A stretch of DNA of 53,263 bases from a virus, in the IMG/VR virus record IMGVR_UViG_3300036852_000419, positions 1-53,263 of that record, one strand, 5' to 3'. The notes beneath the pieces are model-generated. The model was not told where the DNA came from, searched no databases, and saw nothing but the letters and a program-made list of their open reading frames with translations. Positions 2,997 through 47,675 of this stretch are shown piece by piece; position 1 is the stretch's first letter; every line of letters starts with the position of its first letter. A program made the position numbers and the translations under genes.

Positions 2997-3991
2997 CACC
3001 ATTTACCGACATGAGCATGTGGCTGCCCAAAAGCGTGCGCGAGGAGGGTGTGTTTCGCTGTGATGCGACGACGCTGAGCGGGATTCTGAAGTGTATGCGC
3101 TACGAGGCAACGCGAACTTCGCTTTCCCGCGTGCCCTCTGGCTGGCAACGCAATCTGGGCTTCGGCGGCGCTCTGCACGCCGCGCTGGACGTGAGACAAA
3201 AGGCGATGATGCGGGGGGAGAAGGTGAGTCAGAGCGCGATGGACGCGGAGATTGAGAAAGCTTTTGCGGGCGCGGTGCTTCAAGATGACGAGTGGCTACA
3301 TTCGGGAAGATGTCGTGAGGCTGTCGGTCTTTACTGCCAGCAATATCCTAGCGAGGATTTTGAGATCATGGCGAGCGAGGTGAGTGCGGAGAAGGAGCTG
3401 GGAACTGTGCTCTATACCGAGACGTTGATGGGTATGGGCAAGGAGCATCGCGTCGAGAAAGAGTGCCGAGTCAAGTGGCAAGGCAAGGGCGACGGCATCT
3501 GGCGACGCGGGCGACACGGGCACTGTGCCGTGAAGGACACGAAATCGACCACGCAGCTCGGCGACCCTGAAATGAAGCGCAAAGAGTTCGAGATGGGGCA
3601 TCAGCTCAAGATGTATGATTGGCTCTTTAGCGACCGCGAGTGGGGCACGATTCGCGAGAATGTAGTGGATCTGGTGGTGCTCAGAGCGCCACTCGCGAAG
3701 GTGACAGCGAAGAGCCTCCCCAGGCATGAGTTCTATCGCTGGGTCATCAGCTACACTGACGAGCAGATCGAGGAAGCCAAGCGCGACGCGCTGAAGGTCA
3801 TTGGGCTCTGGCTCACTGCCTGTGCGCATCACAGCGAGCCGCCACCGATGACGGGAGCGCCGCTGGAGTGCACGTGGGGGAAGGGGTGCTGTTATCGTGA
3901 GGTGTGTGAGCAGCGGAGCGAGAAAGATCGCATGGCTTGGCTTAGCTCAGGTGCTTTTAGGGGCAACGATTTTAACCCCATGAATATGTGA
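2993..3991 (+). CDS. Cas4/RecB-like PD-(D/E)XK nuclease with Fe-S cysteines
   Basis: 332 residues from a GTG start coupled to the previous gene. The nuclease core shows GDG (Asp167) and DTK (Asp182, Lys184), the metal-binding pattern of PD-(D/E)XK enzymes. One Cys near the N-terminus (Cys34, in ILKCMRYE) and four near the C-terminus (Cys293, Cys299, Cys300, Cys305) match the split cluster that binds 4Fe-4S in Cas4 and AddB. This family cuts or resects DNA ends. With the nearby ATPase and DNA-binding protein it probably serves phage recombination or replication. No Cas1, Cas2 or CRISPR array is present. Confidence 0.82.
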   Translation: MTPFTDMSMWLPKSVREEGVFRCDATTLSGILKCMRYEATRTSLSRVPSGWQRNLGFGGALHAALDVRQKAMMRGEKVSQSAMDAEIEKAFAGAVLQDDEWLHSGRCREAVGLYCQQYPSEDFEIMASEVSAEKELGTVLYTETLMGMGKEHRVEKECRVKWQGKGDGIWRRGRHGHCAVKDTKSTTQLGDPEMKRKEFEMGHQLKMYDWLFSDREWGTIRENVVDLVVLRAPLAKVTAKSLPRHEFYRWVISYTDEQIEEAKRDALKVIGLWLTACAHHSEPPPMTGAPLECTWGKGCCYREVCEQRSEKDRMAWLSSGAFRGNDFNPMNM

Positions 3992-4210: not shown

Positions 4211-4392
4211 GCAAGCGTGTCGAATATCTCGTGACTTGTGCTGTGCAAACGAAGGGTCAACAGCAATGGACCGTGATGGCTACAAGTGAAGAGGAAGCCA
4301 AGTTGCGCGTTGAAGAAGGTGAGGGCGAAATAGCTGGAGAGGAATTTGATGTTCAGTCTTCCAAGGTAGTGAAAGTCGAGGTGAACTCATGA
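4207..4392 (+). CDS. Hypothetical acidic protein (61 aa)
   Basis: GTG start overlaps the preceding stop, and the ATGA overlap with the ATPase gene follows. The pattern of beta strand (VEYLVTCAVQ), turn, strand (WTVMATSEEEAK), helix and strand resembles a small alpha/beta fold. Function is unknown; strict coupling suggests stoichiometric expression with the ATPase. Confidence 0.65.
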   Translation: MSKRVEYLVTCAVQTKGQQQWTVMATSEEEAKLRVEEGEGEIAGEEFDVQSSKVVKVEVNS

Positions 4393-5210
4393 GCGACTTC
4401 CTCAACAGCATCATTCCCAGCGCACCCGTCGCTGCTAGTGTGACCGAGCCTCGCTCCCTGCTCATCTACAGCGATTTCAAGGTCGGGAAGAGTCAACTCG
4501 CGAGCGATCTCACGATGCGCGCCAAAGCGCTCTGGCTCGACTACGAGGACGGGAGCGAAGGGCTCCCAGGCGTCAAGATCAACGTGATCAAGCAAGTGAA
4601 CGAGATCAATGCCACGCGGCCAGAGAATAACAAGCTGAAGCGCATAGACTTTCTGCTTCAGCTCTGGCGTGAGCTTGCGGCTGAGACGCCTCCGCGCTTC
4701 GATGTGATCGTGCATGATAAGTTGGATAATCTTGAGGAGTGGGCGACCAAGTGGGCGACGGCATATTACAAAAGTACGGTCATTGGCCGTAACTGGACGG
4801 GCGATAATGTGCTCGAACTTCCTGAAGGGTCCGGCTACAGCTACTTGCGCGACAAGTTCTTAGAGCTATGGAACGCGCTCATGGCCGCTTCACCGCGCTC
4901 GATTCTGTTCACCAGCCTCCGCATGAAATACGTCGGCAAAGCTGACACGATGGTCGAGAGCAAGGATCTGGATCTGTGCGGAAAGGTGAGAAAGATCGCG
5001 GCGGGGTTCACAGACGCGCCGAGCTATATGTGGCGGGATGCACAGAGTGCGAACTGGCTGAGCTTCAAGACGAGCGAGAAAGGGACTTTCTGCGGGTGCA
5101 GGATTCCTTATCTGGAGGGGAGAGAGATCAAGATCAGCGAGAAGATGAGCGACGGGAAGGTGAAAGTGAACTGGCACGAGATTTATCCGAGCTTGTTTCC
5201 GAAGGCATAA
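4389..5210 (+). CDS. RecA/Sak4-like P-loop ATPase
   Basis: 273 residues with a Walker A loop YSDFKVGKS (27-35), a Walker B-like strand (DVIVHDKLD, about 102-110) and downstream strands typical of the RecA-like AAA_24/Sak4 group. That group promotes single-strand annealing or recombination in phages, normally with an SSB encoded beside it. An SSB-like gene does follow two genes later, and a Cas4-like nuclease lies upstream, so the three probably form a recombination set. Confidence 0.75.
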   Translation: MSDFLNSIIPSAPVAASVTEPRSLLIYSDFKVGKSQLASDLTMRAKALWLDYEDGSEGLPGVKINVIKQVNEINATRPENNKLKRIDFLLQLWRELAAETPPRFDVIVHDKLDNLEEWATKWATAYYKSTVIGRNWTGDNVLELPEGSGYSYLRDKFLELWNALMAASPRSILFTSLRMKYVGKADTMVESKDLDLCGKVRKIAAGFTDAPSYMWRDAQSANWLSFKTSEKGTFCGCRIPYLEGREIKISEKMSDGKVKVNWHEIYPSLFPKA

Positions 5211-6219: not shown

Positions 6220-9200
6220 GTGAGCGCTGGCGACCCCAGCTCTCCGTTCGAACGATCAGCTCTAGGCTCGCCCCGTCATAGTCGGACTGGGGCTGATCGG
6301 TCGAGCGAGTGGTGGAAGAGAGACACGCCCATAGCCGATGTTGGGAGTGAGAACTTACGGCAAGTGATCACTGTGCAGAGTGAGATTCTCTGCCTCGCTC
6401 GAATGATTTCAATGATCAAGATCCCAAACCAATTCCCCGCGCTGGAGCCTCAAGGCCCCACGCGCATCGCCATCGTTCTCGATTTTCCCGACCGTGAAAG
6501 CGCTCACCAGGGCGTTGCGCTAGGCGGAGAGGCAGCGAGGCTGCTAGAAGGCGCCCTGGGTCACGTTGGGATCGCGCTCGCGAGCTGCTTCGTGGGCAAC
6601 GTCAGCCAGGTCACAGCCACGAGCTTCAACGTGCTGGCCTGGGAAGGTGAGGAGGTGCAGAGCGGCATCGCACAGCTTCGCGCTGATCTTGAACGCTTCA
6701 AGCCCAGCATCGTGGTTTGCATGGGCACGGCGGCTCTCCATCTCTTTCGCGTCGGCAACCTCGCCCCCCGCAAAGTGAAAGCAGGCTTTGATTGGCCGAG
6801 CAAGATTGGGAGCTGGAGGGGGTCGTTGTTCGAGAGCATGTGGCTGGCTAGCTGCGTGGAGAACGTGCCTGAAAGTGTGATTGTTCATGGCGTGAAGTGT
6901 CTTGCCGCTCTCCCCCCCGCCATGGTCCTTCGCGACTACGGGCTTCAGGCTTACTATCGGACGGGAGTGGGAGGGTTGGGGGATTTGGAGAGACTCAAGC
7001 AAGAGATGGGGATCTGTGAACTAACGCTTCCTCAGCGCAGTATCTGCATCGCAGCCCCTGAATATGGCTGGGGCGTGGAAGGAATCTGTGCGGAACTTTA
7101 CAAGCTGAAGGTCGCGGGTGTGCCGCTGGGCCAGGACTTAGAAGGCTATCCTGGGAATGTGACGTGCATGGCTTACGCGCCCGCTTCGAATCGAGCGCTT
7201 GTAATTCCATTCGCGCATATCGATGGGACTTCGGTGTGGAGCGAGGACGAGGAGACGCGATTGTGGCAAGCGCAGCGGGATTTGATTCTGGAGAACACAG
7301 AGCTTACGAAAGTCGGTCAGAATTACTACTGCTACGATGCGTTCGCTCTCGCGTGGACCTACGGGATTGTGGTTAAGAATATAGAAGACGCTATCCTCGC
7401 GTGGTGGGAATTGTTTCCGGAGCTTTTGAAAGGACTCGCGACTCAGACGAGCTTGCTGACGAGACAGCCGTTCTACAAGCCGGACAAGGAAGACGGCGAG
7501 TTGCAGTTCAAGAGCGATGAGGAGTTCTGGACTTACAACGGGATCGATGCGTGCGTGACGCTGGAGTGCTGGGAGAGGGAGAAGGCGTTGATGGACGCGG
7601 GGCAGCAGAGTCATTATCAGTTCAATATCTCGTTGCTTCCGGCGATTAGGTACATGATGCTCCGAGGCATCAAGTTTGACAAAGGTCGCGCGAAGGAGGC
7701 GAGAGAGAAAGCGTCGCGAGGGGCGATGGAGTTGCAGGCGGAGATTGACCAGGTGCAGGCTCGCGAGGATGGGCTGGGAACAGCGTTGTGCGATCTCTAT
7801 GCGAATCTGATGTCGAGCACGGCGTCTGAGGAATGGTTCGCAGCTCTCACCCTCCGCTGTCTCGGATGCAAGAATCCTCGCGTCAAGGTCGAGGTCGTGG
7901 AAGAGCGCTGGCAGCCGATGAGATGGAATGGAAAGAAGTGGGTGAAGGATGGGAAACGTGTTGATGCAGCGGGACGTGAGTTGCTCAGAGCAAATCCGAT
8001 TTTCAAATGCTTGGAGAAAGACACAGAGCCTTGCGTAGTGATCGAGTTAGGTCTCCTTTGGCTCAAGCCCATGCACAAGCTCACGCTCAAGCGCCAGCCC
8101 TTCGCGCCCGCCTCTCTCTCCGACTGCGAGCCTCACATCTTGGAGAGCAAGAGAGCTGAGTGGAAGAGAGTGAAAGCGATTTGGAAGGAATTAAGCTATG
8201 GACAAACTGCTGATAGAGGAAATTCGTCTGTTAAGATGGCGATTGATGAGAGAAGCGGATTACATACAAGATCATCTGCTCTCCTCGGTGAACTCTCCAC
8301 TCTTCTCGGTCTCGCCGTCAACATCGGGAGCACGAACCAAGGCGGCGACGCGCAGAGGTTCCTCTACGAAACGTGCGGTCTCAGGAGGATCTACAAAGAC
8401 GCGTGGACGGGGAGGTTGTCGTGGGAGGCGGAAGGGGAGTGGAGGAAGAGGCTCAAAGCGAAAGGATTAACATGTGAAACTGAAGCGAATCAAGAGACGC
8501 TTGGAGGATGCGATGACGTGGCTGGAGCCGCCAATGGACGCGCAGAAGGCGAGGATTCATCTATTTGCAGCGCTAAACCTGCTGGAAAGCGTTTCTCCAC
8601 CGATCAGCAAACCCTGGATAAGCTCTACGCGGCGACGCAAGACGTGAGGGTGTTGTGGTGCTTGCAGCAGCGGAGGCTGAGGCTCGCAGCCACGAATCTC
8701 GACAAAGAGATCGATGACGACGGGAGGATCAGAAGCTCGATCAGTCTCGTGAAAGAGACCGGGCGCATGGCGGCGAGTGAGAGTCCGATGGGAACGGGAA
8801 CGAACCTCCAGAGCTGGGACAAGCATCATCGTCATGTGATGGTGGCGGACGAGGGCTGCGTGATGGGGCAGTGTGATCTTGAAGGCGCTGACTCGTGGAC
8901 CGTGGCGGCGGAGTGTGCGGCTCTCGGTGACACGAAGATGCTGGAGGATCTGAGAGCGGGGCTGAAGCCTGCGAAGGGGCTTTGCTTCGGTTACTTCGAA
9001 CCGGGACTCTATCAGAATGCGAGCACGGATCTCATGAAAGCGCGCTTGAAAGAGCTGACGCTTCCGGACTGGCTTTATCCAGGCGCAAAGAGCAGTCTTC
9101 ACGGGGGGTGCTACGGGAGCGGATGGCGCACGACGATTGATACGATTCTGAAGTATTCGATGGCGGATCTGCCACTGGATCTGAAGACAGCGAGACCGAT

Positions 9201-9705
9201 TGTGCTTTCGAAAGAGCAAGTGGATAAGCTGAGAAGCGCGCTATTTCTACGCTACCCTGGCATCAAGGCTTGGCACGCGAAGACTGAGAAGCTCTTGCTC
9301 ACGACGGGAGTGCTTGAGATGAACACGGGGCACCGCAGGAGGATCTATCAGCGCAAAGCGGAATTCAAGCAGGGGAGAAAGGTCGCGTGTCATGAGACGC
9401 TGAAGGAGGTGCTGAGCAGTGCACCTCAATACTACACCACTTACAGCATCAAGCTCGCGCTACGAAATCTGTGGTATGCTGATGATAATCGCGATGGCGA
9501 GAAGTTGAAGGTTGAGCCTCTACTCTGTGTGCATGACTCGATCTTGACTCAATGGAGGCGGGAGGATGACACTTTCGCTCGTCCTTTCATGCGAGAGATT
9601 TTTCAGAACGAGATTCTGATCGCGGGGCAGAGGATTGTCATTCCTGCCGAAGGGTTTTGTTACAGTGACTGGAGCATGGACAAAGAGAAAGCTGAGAAAC
9701 TATGA
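6220..9705 (+). CDS. Family A DNA polymerase with N-terminal uracil-DNA-glycosylase-like domain
   Basis: 1161 residues. The proofreading exonuclease shows Exo I Asp306-x-Glu308, Exo II Asn368...Asp373 and Exo III Tyr439...Asp443. The polymerase shows motif A Asp886-Leu-Glu888, motif B Lys957...Tyr965-Gly966 and motif C His1105-Asp1106. Residues about 80-200 resemble a UDG-superfamily fold (RIAIVLDFPD, GGEAARLLEGAL, SIVVCMGTAALHLF), so the enzyme may couple base inspection to synthesis. The GTG start is uncertain; ATGs at 6403 and 6412 would drop about 61-64 residues. Between exonuclease and palm lies an enlarged Cys-containing region and two stretches (8197-8280 and 8470-8600) whose own-frame sequence is atypical. 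Confidence 0.9.
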   Translation: MSAGDPSSPFERSALGSPRHSRTGADRSSEWWKRDTPIADVGSENLRQVITVQSEILCLARMISMIKIPNQFPALEPQGPTRIAIVLDFPDRESAHQGVALGGEAARLLEGALGHVGIALASCFVGNVSQVTATSFNVLAWEGEEVQSGIAQLRADLERFKPSIVVCMGTAALHLFRVGNLAPRKVKAGFDWPSKIGSWRGSLFESMWLASCVENVPESVIVHGVKCLAALPPAMVLRDYGLQAYYRTGVGGLGDLERLKQEMGICELTLPQRSICIAAPEYGWGVEGICAELYKLKVAGVPLGQDLEGYPGNVTCMAYAPASNRALVIPFAHIDGTSVWSEDEETRLWQAQRDLILENTELTKVGQNYYCYDAFALAWTYGIVVKNIEDAILAWWELFPELLKGLATQTSLLTRQPFYKPDKEDGELQFKSDEEFWTYNGIDACVTLECWEREKALMDAGQQSHYQFNISLLPAIRYMMLRGIKFDKGRAKEAREKASRGAMELQAEIDQVQAREDGLGTALCDLYANLMSSTASEEWFAALTLRCLGCKNPRVKVEVVEERWQPMRWNGKKWVKDGKRVDAAGRELLRANPIFKCLEKDTEPCVVIELGLLWLKPMHKLTLKRQPFAPASLSDCEPHILESKRAEWKRVKAIWKELSYGQTADRGNSSVKMAIDERSGLHTRSSALLGELSTLLGLAVNIGSTNQGGDAQRFLYETCGLRRIYKDAWTGRLSWEAEGEWRKRLKAKGLTCETEANQETLGGCDDVAGAANGRAEGEDSSICSAKPAGKRFSTDQQTLDKLYAATQDVRVLWCLQQRRLRLAATNLDKEIDDDGRIRSSISLVKETGRMAASESPMGTGTNLQSWDKHHRHVMVADEGCVMGQCDLEGADSWTVAAECAALGDTKMLEDLRAGLKPAKGLCFGYFEPGLYQNASTDLMKARLKELTLPDWLYPGAKSSLHGGCYGSGWRTTIDTILKYSMADLPLDLKTARPIVLSKEQVDKLRSALFLRYPGIKAWHAKTEKLLLTTGVLEMNTGHRRRIYQRKAEFKQGRKVACHETLKEVLSSAPQYYTTYSIKLALRNLWYADDNRDGEKLKVEPLLCVHDSILTQWRREDDTFARPFMREIFQNEILIAGQRIVIPAEGFCYSDWSMDKEKAEKL
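8198..8470 (+). other. Overlapping frame inside the polymerase gene, first segment
   Basis: In the +1 frame relative to the polymerase, GGAAGGAATTAAGCT precedes an ATG that encodes a strongly helical start (MDKLLIEEIRLLRWRLMREA). The polymerase frame over the same bases reads as a polar, atypical stretch. The frame stays open for 90 codons, but only the first ~30 look protein-like. It could be a nested small gene or a captured remnant. Confidence 0.35.
8474..8647 (+). other. Overlapping frame inside the polymerase gene, second segment
   Basis: Four bases after the stop of the first overlapping frame, AAAGGATTAACAT precedes a GTG in the same +1 frame. It encodes 57 residues with a basic helix (KLKRIKRRLEDAMTWLE) and a second helix (AQKARIHLFAALNLLESV). 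The polymerase frame here reads as a Gly/Glu/Ala-rich linker. A nested gene or remnant is suspected. Confidence 0.35.
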
Positions 9706-45942: not shown

Positions 45943-46071
45943 GCTCTCTCTCGTGACGCTCGTATTTCAGACAACAACTCTTTCCGTGCATGTGGAGCCG
46001 CTTAGAACGGATGAGCGTCACAACTCCCTTTCTGATTTCTCTACATGCGCGATTTTCTAAGGAATGGTCAA

Positions 46072-46689
46072 ATGAGCAAAGCAACTCAAATCGGGACAGA
46101 CATCAGCAACGACGGACAGTTTACGGTGGACTGCTCGAAACCTTACATTGCCACAGTGGTCATCGAAGGCGTGTGCGATCTGTTGTTTCATCGCTGGTCC
46201 AACGAAGATGTGGAAGCTAAAGGGAATGCTGCTAAAGGCAGCAAAGCCAAGAAGCAGGACAACCTGGAGGCTTACGTGTATCGCACCGATGACGGGATGC
46301 TAGCTATTCCCGGCACTTACCTGAGAGGCGCAATTGTGGCCGCAGCCAAATTCAAGCAAGACCCACGCTCACCTCGCAAGTCAATGTGTGATCTGGCGAA
46401 GGCTGCTGTGGTACCGCTTACTGTACTGGCGTCACTTGGAGTGAAAGCTTGGGATTACGAGGACAGGCAGCGAGTCACAATCCAGCGCAATGCCATCACG
46501 CGCTGCCGTCCTGCTATGAAAACTGGATGGAGAGCTGAATTTAACCTGCTTTGCAATCTTCCAGAATATGTGTCGCCGCAGTGCTTGAATGAGCTTATTC
46601 AGAGCGCAGGGAGACTGATCGGGCTGGCTGATTTCAGACCTAGCTACGGAAGATTCTCAGTGATTGGATTTTCAGTCCATCAGGACTGA
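46072..46689 (+). CDS. RAMP (Cas7)-like protein
   Basis: 205 residues from the ATG at 46072, preceded by AAGGA eight bases upstream, one of the better ribosome sites here. An N-terminal strand (IATVVIEGVCDLLFH, 26-40) leads into a Lys-rich loop (50-62). IPGTYLRGA (79-87) matches the IPGSSL(K/R)GA motif of RAMP-superfamily proteins. The C-terminal GLADFRPSYGRF (184-195) matches their Gly-rich loop. RAMP proteins bind RNA in type III/I CRISPR complexes, yet no other Cas gene is present. The gene is followed at once by the pentamer array and a terminator, which suggests that the array RNA is its ligand. Fold assignment is by motif only. Confidence 0.6.
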   Translation: MSKATQIGTDISNDGQFTVDCSKPYIATVVIEGVCDLLFHRWSNEDVEAKGNAAKGSKAKKQDNLEAYVYRTDDGMLAIPGTYLRGAIVAAAKFKQDPRSPRKSMCDLAKAAVVPLTVLASLGVKAWDYEDRQRVTIQRNAITRCRPAMKTGWRAEFNLLCNLPEYVSPQCLNELIQSAGRLIGLADFRPSYGRFSVIGFSVHQD

Positions 46690-46695
46690 GTTGGA

Positions 46696-46895
46696 GTAAG
46701 ATCGGATGGGGTGCGATGTGGTCTGGTTTGGTCGTGCTGGGTCCGGTTCGGTGTGGCGAGATGCGGTGCGATTTGGTCTGATCGGGTTAGGTAGTGTGTG
46801 TTGTGGTATGATTAGGCTTGGCACGGTTAGGTCAATCGAGGTCCGCTACGGTGCGGTTGCGGTGTGCTTGGTTAGGGTGCGTTATGTCAGGGTAT
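46696..46895 (+). repeat. Pentanucleotide-periodic RYNNG array (about 40 units)
   Basis: From 46696 the sequence divides into 5-mers in one unbroken phase. In the first 32 units position 1 is a purine in 29, position 2 a pyrimidine in all 32 (T in 27), and position 5 is G in 29; positions 3-4 vary freely. The last 8 units are looser. It starts six bases after the RAMP-like stop, and a strong terminator follows at 46898, so it is probably part of a transcript. Five does not divide by three, so coding cannot explain the period. Confidence 0.92.
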
Positions 46896-46897
46896 TC

Positions 46898-46936
46898 AAG
46901 ACTCAGGTCTCGAAAGGGATCTGAGTCTTTTCTTTT
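46898..46936 (+). terminator. Strong intrinsic terminator after the pentamer array
   Basis: AAGACTCAG (46898-46906) and CTGAGTCTT (46921-46929) form a perfect 9-bp stem with a 14-base loop, followed by TTCTTTT. Confidence 0.88.
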
Positions 46937-47022: not shown

Positions 47023-47316
47023 ATGACCAACCCACTCGAAACAGCTTCAGTGCCTCTCGCGCTCCAGCCTCCCCCCCGCGAAGACCGCCGCCTGCGCTGG
47101 TATCACGCCAAGCTCGCGTTGGGGCTCTGCGGGACGTGTGGCTCGAAGCCGCGCGCTCAGGGCTGTGACGGAAAGCTGTCAGTGAAGTGTGTCGAGTGTC
47201 TGGTGAGCGCGAGAGCGAGAGAGCGCATCAAGCACGGCTGGAAACCGCGATATGTGAGCGGGATGGGCAGGCGAATTTGGCATGGAGCGAAGCGAAGTGA
47301 GGAGGTGGTGTCGTGA
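47023..47316 (+). CDS. Zinc-ribbon protein (97 aa)
   Basis: GGGAG lies 12 bases upstream. CGTCGSKPRAQG and CVECLVSARARER (Cys36, Cys39, Cys56, Cys59) form a zinc ribbon; the C-terminus is basic with Trp/Tyr (RIKHGWKPRYVSGMGRRIW). Nucleic-acid binding is plausible. Coupled to the next gene by GTGA. Confidence 0.65.
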   Translation: MTNPLETASVPLALQPPPREDRRLRWYHAKLALGLCGTCGSKPRAQGCDGKLSVKCVECLVSARARERIKHGWKPRYVSGMGRRIWHGAKRSEEVVS

Positions 47317-47675
47317 GCACTTGGCTATGCGCACAATGCTCAGCCGAATTCAGAACTGAAGCGACTTTGCACGAACATTGCTTGATCGCACACTTGACGG
47401 ATAAACAGCTTCCCCTCCCTCAGATCTTTCTCGACGCCGCCGCACTGATCTCTGGACCGCGCCACGAAAGCTATGGTGACTACGCTGATGAAGCTAATCG
47501 AATCGCTGCGGGATGGAGCGTGCTCATCCAGGCTCCTGTTCAACCTCGTCACGTGCCTATGATGATGGTCTGGCTCAAGCTGATGCGAGAGACACATAAG
47601 CCGGGACAAGATAATAGAACTGATGCGGCGGGCTATCTCGCGCATTTGGATAAGATGATGCAGACAAAGCTATGA
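47313..47675 (+). CDS. C2H2 finger plus DUF6378-like protein (120 aa)
   Basis: Residues 4-25 hold CAQCSAEFRTEATLHEHCLIAH, split here only by name: a classic C2H2 finger (Cys5, Cys8, His21, His26). The rest (AALISGPRHESYGDYADEANRI, VWLKLMRETHKPGQDNRTD each part of one domain) matches the DUF6378 family widespread in phages, of unknown function. The finger fusion is unusual. Confidence 0.7.
   Translation: MSTWLCAQCSAEFRTEATLHEHCLIAHLTDKQLPLPQIFLDAAALISGPRHESYGDYADEANRIAAGWSVLIQAPVQPRHVPMMMVWLKLMRETHKPGQDNRTDAAGYLAHLDKMMQTKL

Follow-up and report, generated by a model that had tools for sequence, protein, structure and literature searches.

VIPR systems, a class reported in April 2026 with SUSP1 as the type phage, pair a standalone RAMP protein, Vipr, with vrRNAs of alternating GGY and NN elements (bioRxiv 2026.04.26.720920; PMC13142463). 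They bind double-stranded DNA in an RNA-guided manner, the NN pairs alone specifying the target and one target base being skipped between pairs (PMC13142463), and phages use them to silence genes of rival elements (bioRxiv 2026.04.26.720920). Published vrRNAs comprise 9-16 repeats each, and a vap accessory gene is described as typical, its universality not being stated (PMC13142463); the same source also mentions staggered arrays of overlapping vrRNAs and seven VIPR types. The window studied here, a stretch of 53,263 nucleotides from IMG/VR virus record IMGVR_UViG_3300036852_000419, very probably holds such a system, judging from sequence homology, a predicted fold and analogy with the published examples: a putative Vipr (46072-46689) followed by a putative guide vrRNA (46700 to about 46930). 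An initial annotation made from the bare letters had proposed a new class of phage RNA and knew of no named element with such a pattern. This claim has to be withdrawn, as the class had been published as the vrRNA of VIPR systems (PMC13142463), and the element is a fresh member of these systems and not a new class.

The array consists of 39 GGY-NN units on the plus strand (46700-46894) and was delimited by its periodicity and by the occurrence of the same element beside vipr in relatives. Lag-5 identity of the tract was 0.513 compared with 0.311 +/- 0.031 in 2000 dinucleotide-preserving shuffles (z = 6.5), none of which reached the tract value, so that the excess over shuffled sequence implied by the initial annotation was recovered. 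Lags 10 and 15 were elevated as well (0.505 and 0.471), lags 3, 4 and 6 were not raised, and the lag-5 score of the tract (0.531) exceeded that of the next-best segment elsewhere in the 53 kb (0.379). Read in its natural frame from 46700, the unit is G-G/A-T/C-N-N with a frequent A at the second position (GRYNN), and the columns of this GGYNN frame carry 1.07, 0.88, 1.01, 0.13 and 0.01 bits, bearing out a non-coding tract on a 5-base grid with three constrained and two free positions per unit. The counts originally given for the first 32 of 40 5-mers from 46696 were likewise reproduced (position 2 a pyrimidine in 32/32, position 1 a purine in 29/32, position 5 G in 29/32). The two middle positions are indeed free, with near 0 bits, but by the published mechanism they would be target-specifying letters and not idle spacers. 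Regularity is highest in the 31 tight units at 46700-46854, while the final 7-8 units are looser and degenerate; the single phase formerly described up to 46895 holds, although an alternative parse with a 1-base slip after 46859 fits the array end about equally well. Among the NN letters, units 1-17 contain one A only (unit 12) and units 18-39 are A-rich, a pattern resembling a junction between two guides of separate origin.

Directly upstream of the array lies vipr (46072-46689, plus strand), which by homology and predicted fold encodes a standalone RAMP/Cas7-like protein of 205 aa. Its start was assigned to the ATG at 46072, preceded by AAGGA, an in-frame ATG at 46045 being less likely. The single window protein matches PDB 36pp, 'SUSP1 Vipr protein', at E 5e-5, and a profile of 55 relatives (A2) does so at E 5.8e-11. 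Alignment with the SUSP2 homologue by hhalign returned 97.7% (E 2.4e-12) at an identity of about 26%, and Felix-O1-like phages including SUSP1 and SUSP2 appear as weak tblastn matches of the window protein. The AF2 model (pLDDT 89.5) resembles, by Foldseek, Csm3/Cas7 subunits of type III-A and VII complexes (best E ~3e-7, prob 1.00, TM about 0.5-0.58), and a C-terminal GRF motif is conserved in the alignment of relatives. Both the sequence matches and the model point to a small, standalone RAMP protein that is a homologue of SUSP1 Vipr. By sequence the protein also belongs to PHROG 4652 (phrog_4652, E 8e-16), for which PHROGs lists no function; because of the 36pp match and the published description (PMC13142463), this family can be tied to a likely function as Vipr. 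A family scan of the neighbours recognised no vap accessory gene beside the window vipr, the next genes at 47023-47316 (no family) and 47313-47675 (DUF6378) not being recognisable as vap.

A 5-base period could in principle also arise from an array of sites bound by a TRAP-like ring protein. TRAP reads NAG triplets at a spacing of 2-3 nt, and its sites are likewise near period 5. The triplets here are, however, GGY and not NAG, and the product of the adjoining co-conserved gene is a Vipr match with a predicted RAMP fold, which disfavours this reading to the point where we give it next to no weight.

Only 10 bases (46690-46699, plus strand) separate the vipr stop from the first unit. Since a consensus scan of the plus strand found no sigma-70-like promoter between 45600 and 47100, the array is probably the 3' continuation of the vipr transcript. 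Just 3' of the tract, folding predicts a hairpin of 14 pairs with a 4-base loop and a T-rich tail (46898-46929, plus strand) that lies 5.8 sd below shuffles, a putative intrinsic terminator and the probable 3' tail of the vrRNA. The terminator noticed originally was hence confirmed as a terminator-like hairpin, and the view of the tract as a transcribed RNA remains probable with this hairpin at its end, except that the adjoining upstream partner gene had been overlooked. The window array thus shares with VIPR systems a structured 3' tail after the repeats; throughout the clade, 28% of the 3' flanks of arrays fold below z = -3 compared with 3% of the 5' flanks. At the gathering threshold, neither the window nor any of 20 relatives had an Rfam match, and therefore no hammerhead ribozyme was found in the searched arrays. 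The position 10 bases past the vipr stop and the lack of a detected promoter of its own would also suit a VIPR-related repeat RNA whose main role is not that of a guide but that of a decoy for protein binding or of an autoregulatory 3'UTR in the vipr mRNA. The same can be said of the array being far longer than published guides and of its degenerate terminal units.

Relatives of vipr were collected from IMG/VR, where nine with 52-62% identity were aligned and a profile search listed 297, 80 of which were retained. Using a small repeat model with a threshold of 22, a GGYNN array was detected within 800 b of vipr in 86/88 loci, which are not 86 independent events because some are near-duplicates. 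Shuffled flanks scored no higher than 18.2 bits, and 1/276 gene-distal real stretches exceeded 22. The two remaining loci are a 924-base fragment (L043) and one with a sub-threshold array of 20.5 (L031). Presence at the same locus in related phages, left for verification by the initial annotation, was accordingly observed. The clade consensus over 5424 units is G (.92), G (.80) and C or T (.50/.40) followed by two near-uniform positions, and long uninterrupted runs are common among these arrays. In SUSP2, a relative of type phage SUSP1, the same scan revealed four arrays at the homologous gene. As a tandem GGY/NN (YNNGG) array near vipr, the window element has the features by which a vrRNA is recognised. 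A decayed pentanucleotide microsatellite without function would share the tandem 5-base period, and a segment duplication in one relative (L006) is of a kind expected for it. Yet simple decay would not leave about 1 bit in three of the columns and almost none in the other two, and recurrence beside the same gene in diverged loci refutes this reading, whose probability we regard as vanishingly small.

Returning to the guide RNA reading, the placement of the arrays varies among relatives, which carry them upstream or downstream of vipr and, in a few cases, on the opposite strand. Arrays opposite in strand to vipr occur in L005 (1732-2166), L009 (4580-5322), L069 (2308-2895), L007, L036, L070 and L079, some with more than 80 units, and cannot be 3' tails of vipr mRNA. 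That several relatives have their array ahead of vipr or on the opposite strand argues against the decoy or 3'UTR function.

Several further observations concern the architecture of these loci. In L006, two arrays (3768-3957 and 4657-4949) have a common 3' unit block, a near-identical tail and an internal duplication, and arrays seem to grow by copying blocks. Phage DSL-LC04 (L011, OR003939.1) carries a vipr homologue (8004-8621) annotated as 'helix-turn-helix transcriptional regulator', with arrays just upstream (7686-7967). An ORF resembling RusA resolvase by its translation lies between vipr and the downstream array in L015 (3618-4058), L018, L021 and L033. A gene reading like an AAA ATPase directly follows vipr in L004, and the window itself encodes an AAA_24 ATPase (4389-5210, plus strand), hinting at a recombination-module neighbourhood. 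The window also contains an ORF of 1161 aa (6220-9705, plus strand) with a uracil-DNA-glycosylase domain at residues 81-181 and, near the C-terminus, a family A DNA polymerase match at 992-1131 just under the Pfam cut-off, an apparent UDG-polymerase fusion.

The published pairing code was examined by comparing the NN pairs of all arrays with 0.58 Mb of clade loci, in which arrays were masked, while skipping 0-3 bases. For a skip of one base, 41 windows of 12 units reached 20/24 matches or more, some two to three times the numbers for skips of zero, two and three (14, 12 and 18) and for shuffled unit order (15 and 14); this is to be read as a ratio and not as a p-value, since neither overlapping windows nor related arrays count as independent. 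A larger test on 1.5 Mb with a stricter threshold showed a small skip-1 excess, with 8 for skip-1, 2 for skip-0, 3 for skip-2 and 2 for shuffled order, as well as 10 for skip-3, the latter probably due to leftover unmasked arrays. The top clade matches lie inside ORFs and in codon phase, so positioned that the skipped base is the wobble base; the gene names used for them are readings of translations, not database assignments. In this manner, in frame and with the skip on wobble, the L057 array matches the vipr genes of L056, L072 and others, the L020 array the helicase Walker-A region of L030, L037 and L087, and the L058 array an exonuclease-like gene of L047. The L015 and L030 arrays independently match the same short motif (KKRDD-GE) in a gene upstream of vipr in sister phages, and no own copy of this motif was found within the locus sequences of L015 and L030. 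The L057 guide scores 23/26 on the L056 vipr, whereas its own vipr reaches 17/26 and ranks 55th of 82; the L020 guide scores 23/26 on the helicase of three others and 19/26 on its own. By these comparisons, the clade of the window statistically favours the 1-nt-skip code, with matches to sister-phage genes including vipr. In-frame matches above controls, and two checkable guides that fit others' gene better than their own copy, are hard to reconcile with an array acting mainly as decoy or 3'UTR, and we consider that explanation improbable.

For the window's own array, that explanation would also accord with the lack of a confirmed target. Exact 8-unit tiles under the 1-nt-skip rule (units 1-8, 9-16, 17-24 and 25-32) gave 31 matches in viral contigs, none of which extends above chance into its flanks, a 9-unit tile gave 0 matches, and units 1-13 with up to 3 mismatches were not found in 50 full records of relatives. 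In one genome collection, units 9-16 yielded at least 117 seeds, of which 80 were examined for extension. Under the guide reading, the segment of units 5-17 (46720-46784, plus strand) agrees by 1-nt-skip at 25/26 NN bases with a gene of the Limisphaerales MAG isolate bog_1418 (PLAY01000151.1, L192), in frame and with the skip on wobble. An extension of this grade is expected in about 10% of 80-seed scans, the codon phase being a further coincidence of approximately 1 in 6. The gene encodes a protein of 101 aa with an HTH_17 match just below the Pfam cut-off. Searches of 388 genomes from the phylum of the MAG and 320 from its order recovered the original candidate match alone, and relatives of the HTH gene were not detected in viral contigs. 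As a candidate target of the window array the Limisphaerales HTH gene is suggestive only, and its coding for a small HTH protein, in keeping with the regulators that published systems prefer, was noted post hoc.

By analogy with SUSP1 and P. fulva, whose systems have been published, Vipr subunits would coat the array transcript, each occupying one 5-nt unit, gripping its constant GGY and displaying its two free bases (NN). Together, these NN pairs could then pair with double-stranded DNA, leaving one unread target base between them (xNN xNN), and the bound complex would keep a gene belonging to a rival phage, prophage or satellite from being transcribed. The suggestion of the initial annotation that a multimeric protein reads every unit agrees with this presumed mechanism. 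More tentatively, and with less than even confidence, the clade could represent a VIPR layout of its own. Here an unbroken array of 30-100 units, with no vap gene, would hold several guides that overlap or a single very long one; the guides would follow recombination/replication and vipr genes in sister phages yet spare their own, and the window array would target the HTH (HTH_17-like) gene in Limisphaerales. Because long runs are common in the clade and staggered arrays are mentioned in the publication, the window system may be one of the seven types given there.

VIPR is a newly reported RNA-guided system and a proposed CRISPR ancestor, and the 5-base rhythm spotted in raw sequence provides an independent route to it. 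The clade that carries the element is large (about 300 members detectable in IMG/VR), and the sister-phage gene matches in codon phase offer an outside, purely computational check on the published 1-nt-skip code.

Compared with the VIPR system of SUSP1, the window locus has a standalone RAMP of ~200 aa from the same family, GGY/NN arrays in the adjoining intergenic space, a phage-borne location, a structured 3' end and, for the clade arrays, a 1-nt-skip preference with the skip on wobble. It differs in its single run of 39 units, as opposed to separate vrRNAs with 9-16 units each, in the frequent A at the second unit position, in having no recognised vap gene and in a product ~26% identical to the SUSP2 homologue. 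The tail is a pseudoknot in the SUSP clade, whereas that of the window is an intrinsic-terminator-like hairpin. Membership in class 1 CRISPR-Cas was rejected, as the tract lacks a conserved repeat with spacers and the scanned window proteins, a subset of the ORFs, included no cas family. With the RAMPs of class 1 CRISPR systems (Csm3/Cas7), the window protein shares the predicted fold and probably an oligomeric backbone on a guide RNA with fixed bases per subunit. In class 1 CRISPR every sixth position is unpaired, whereas in VIPR only the NN of each 5-nt unit is read (PMC13142463).
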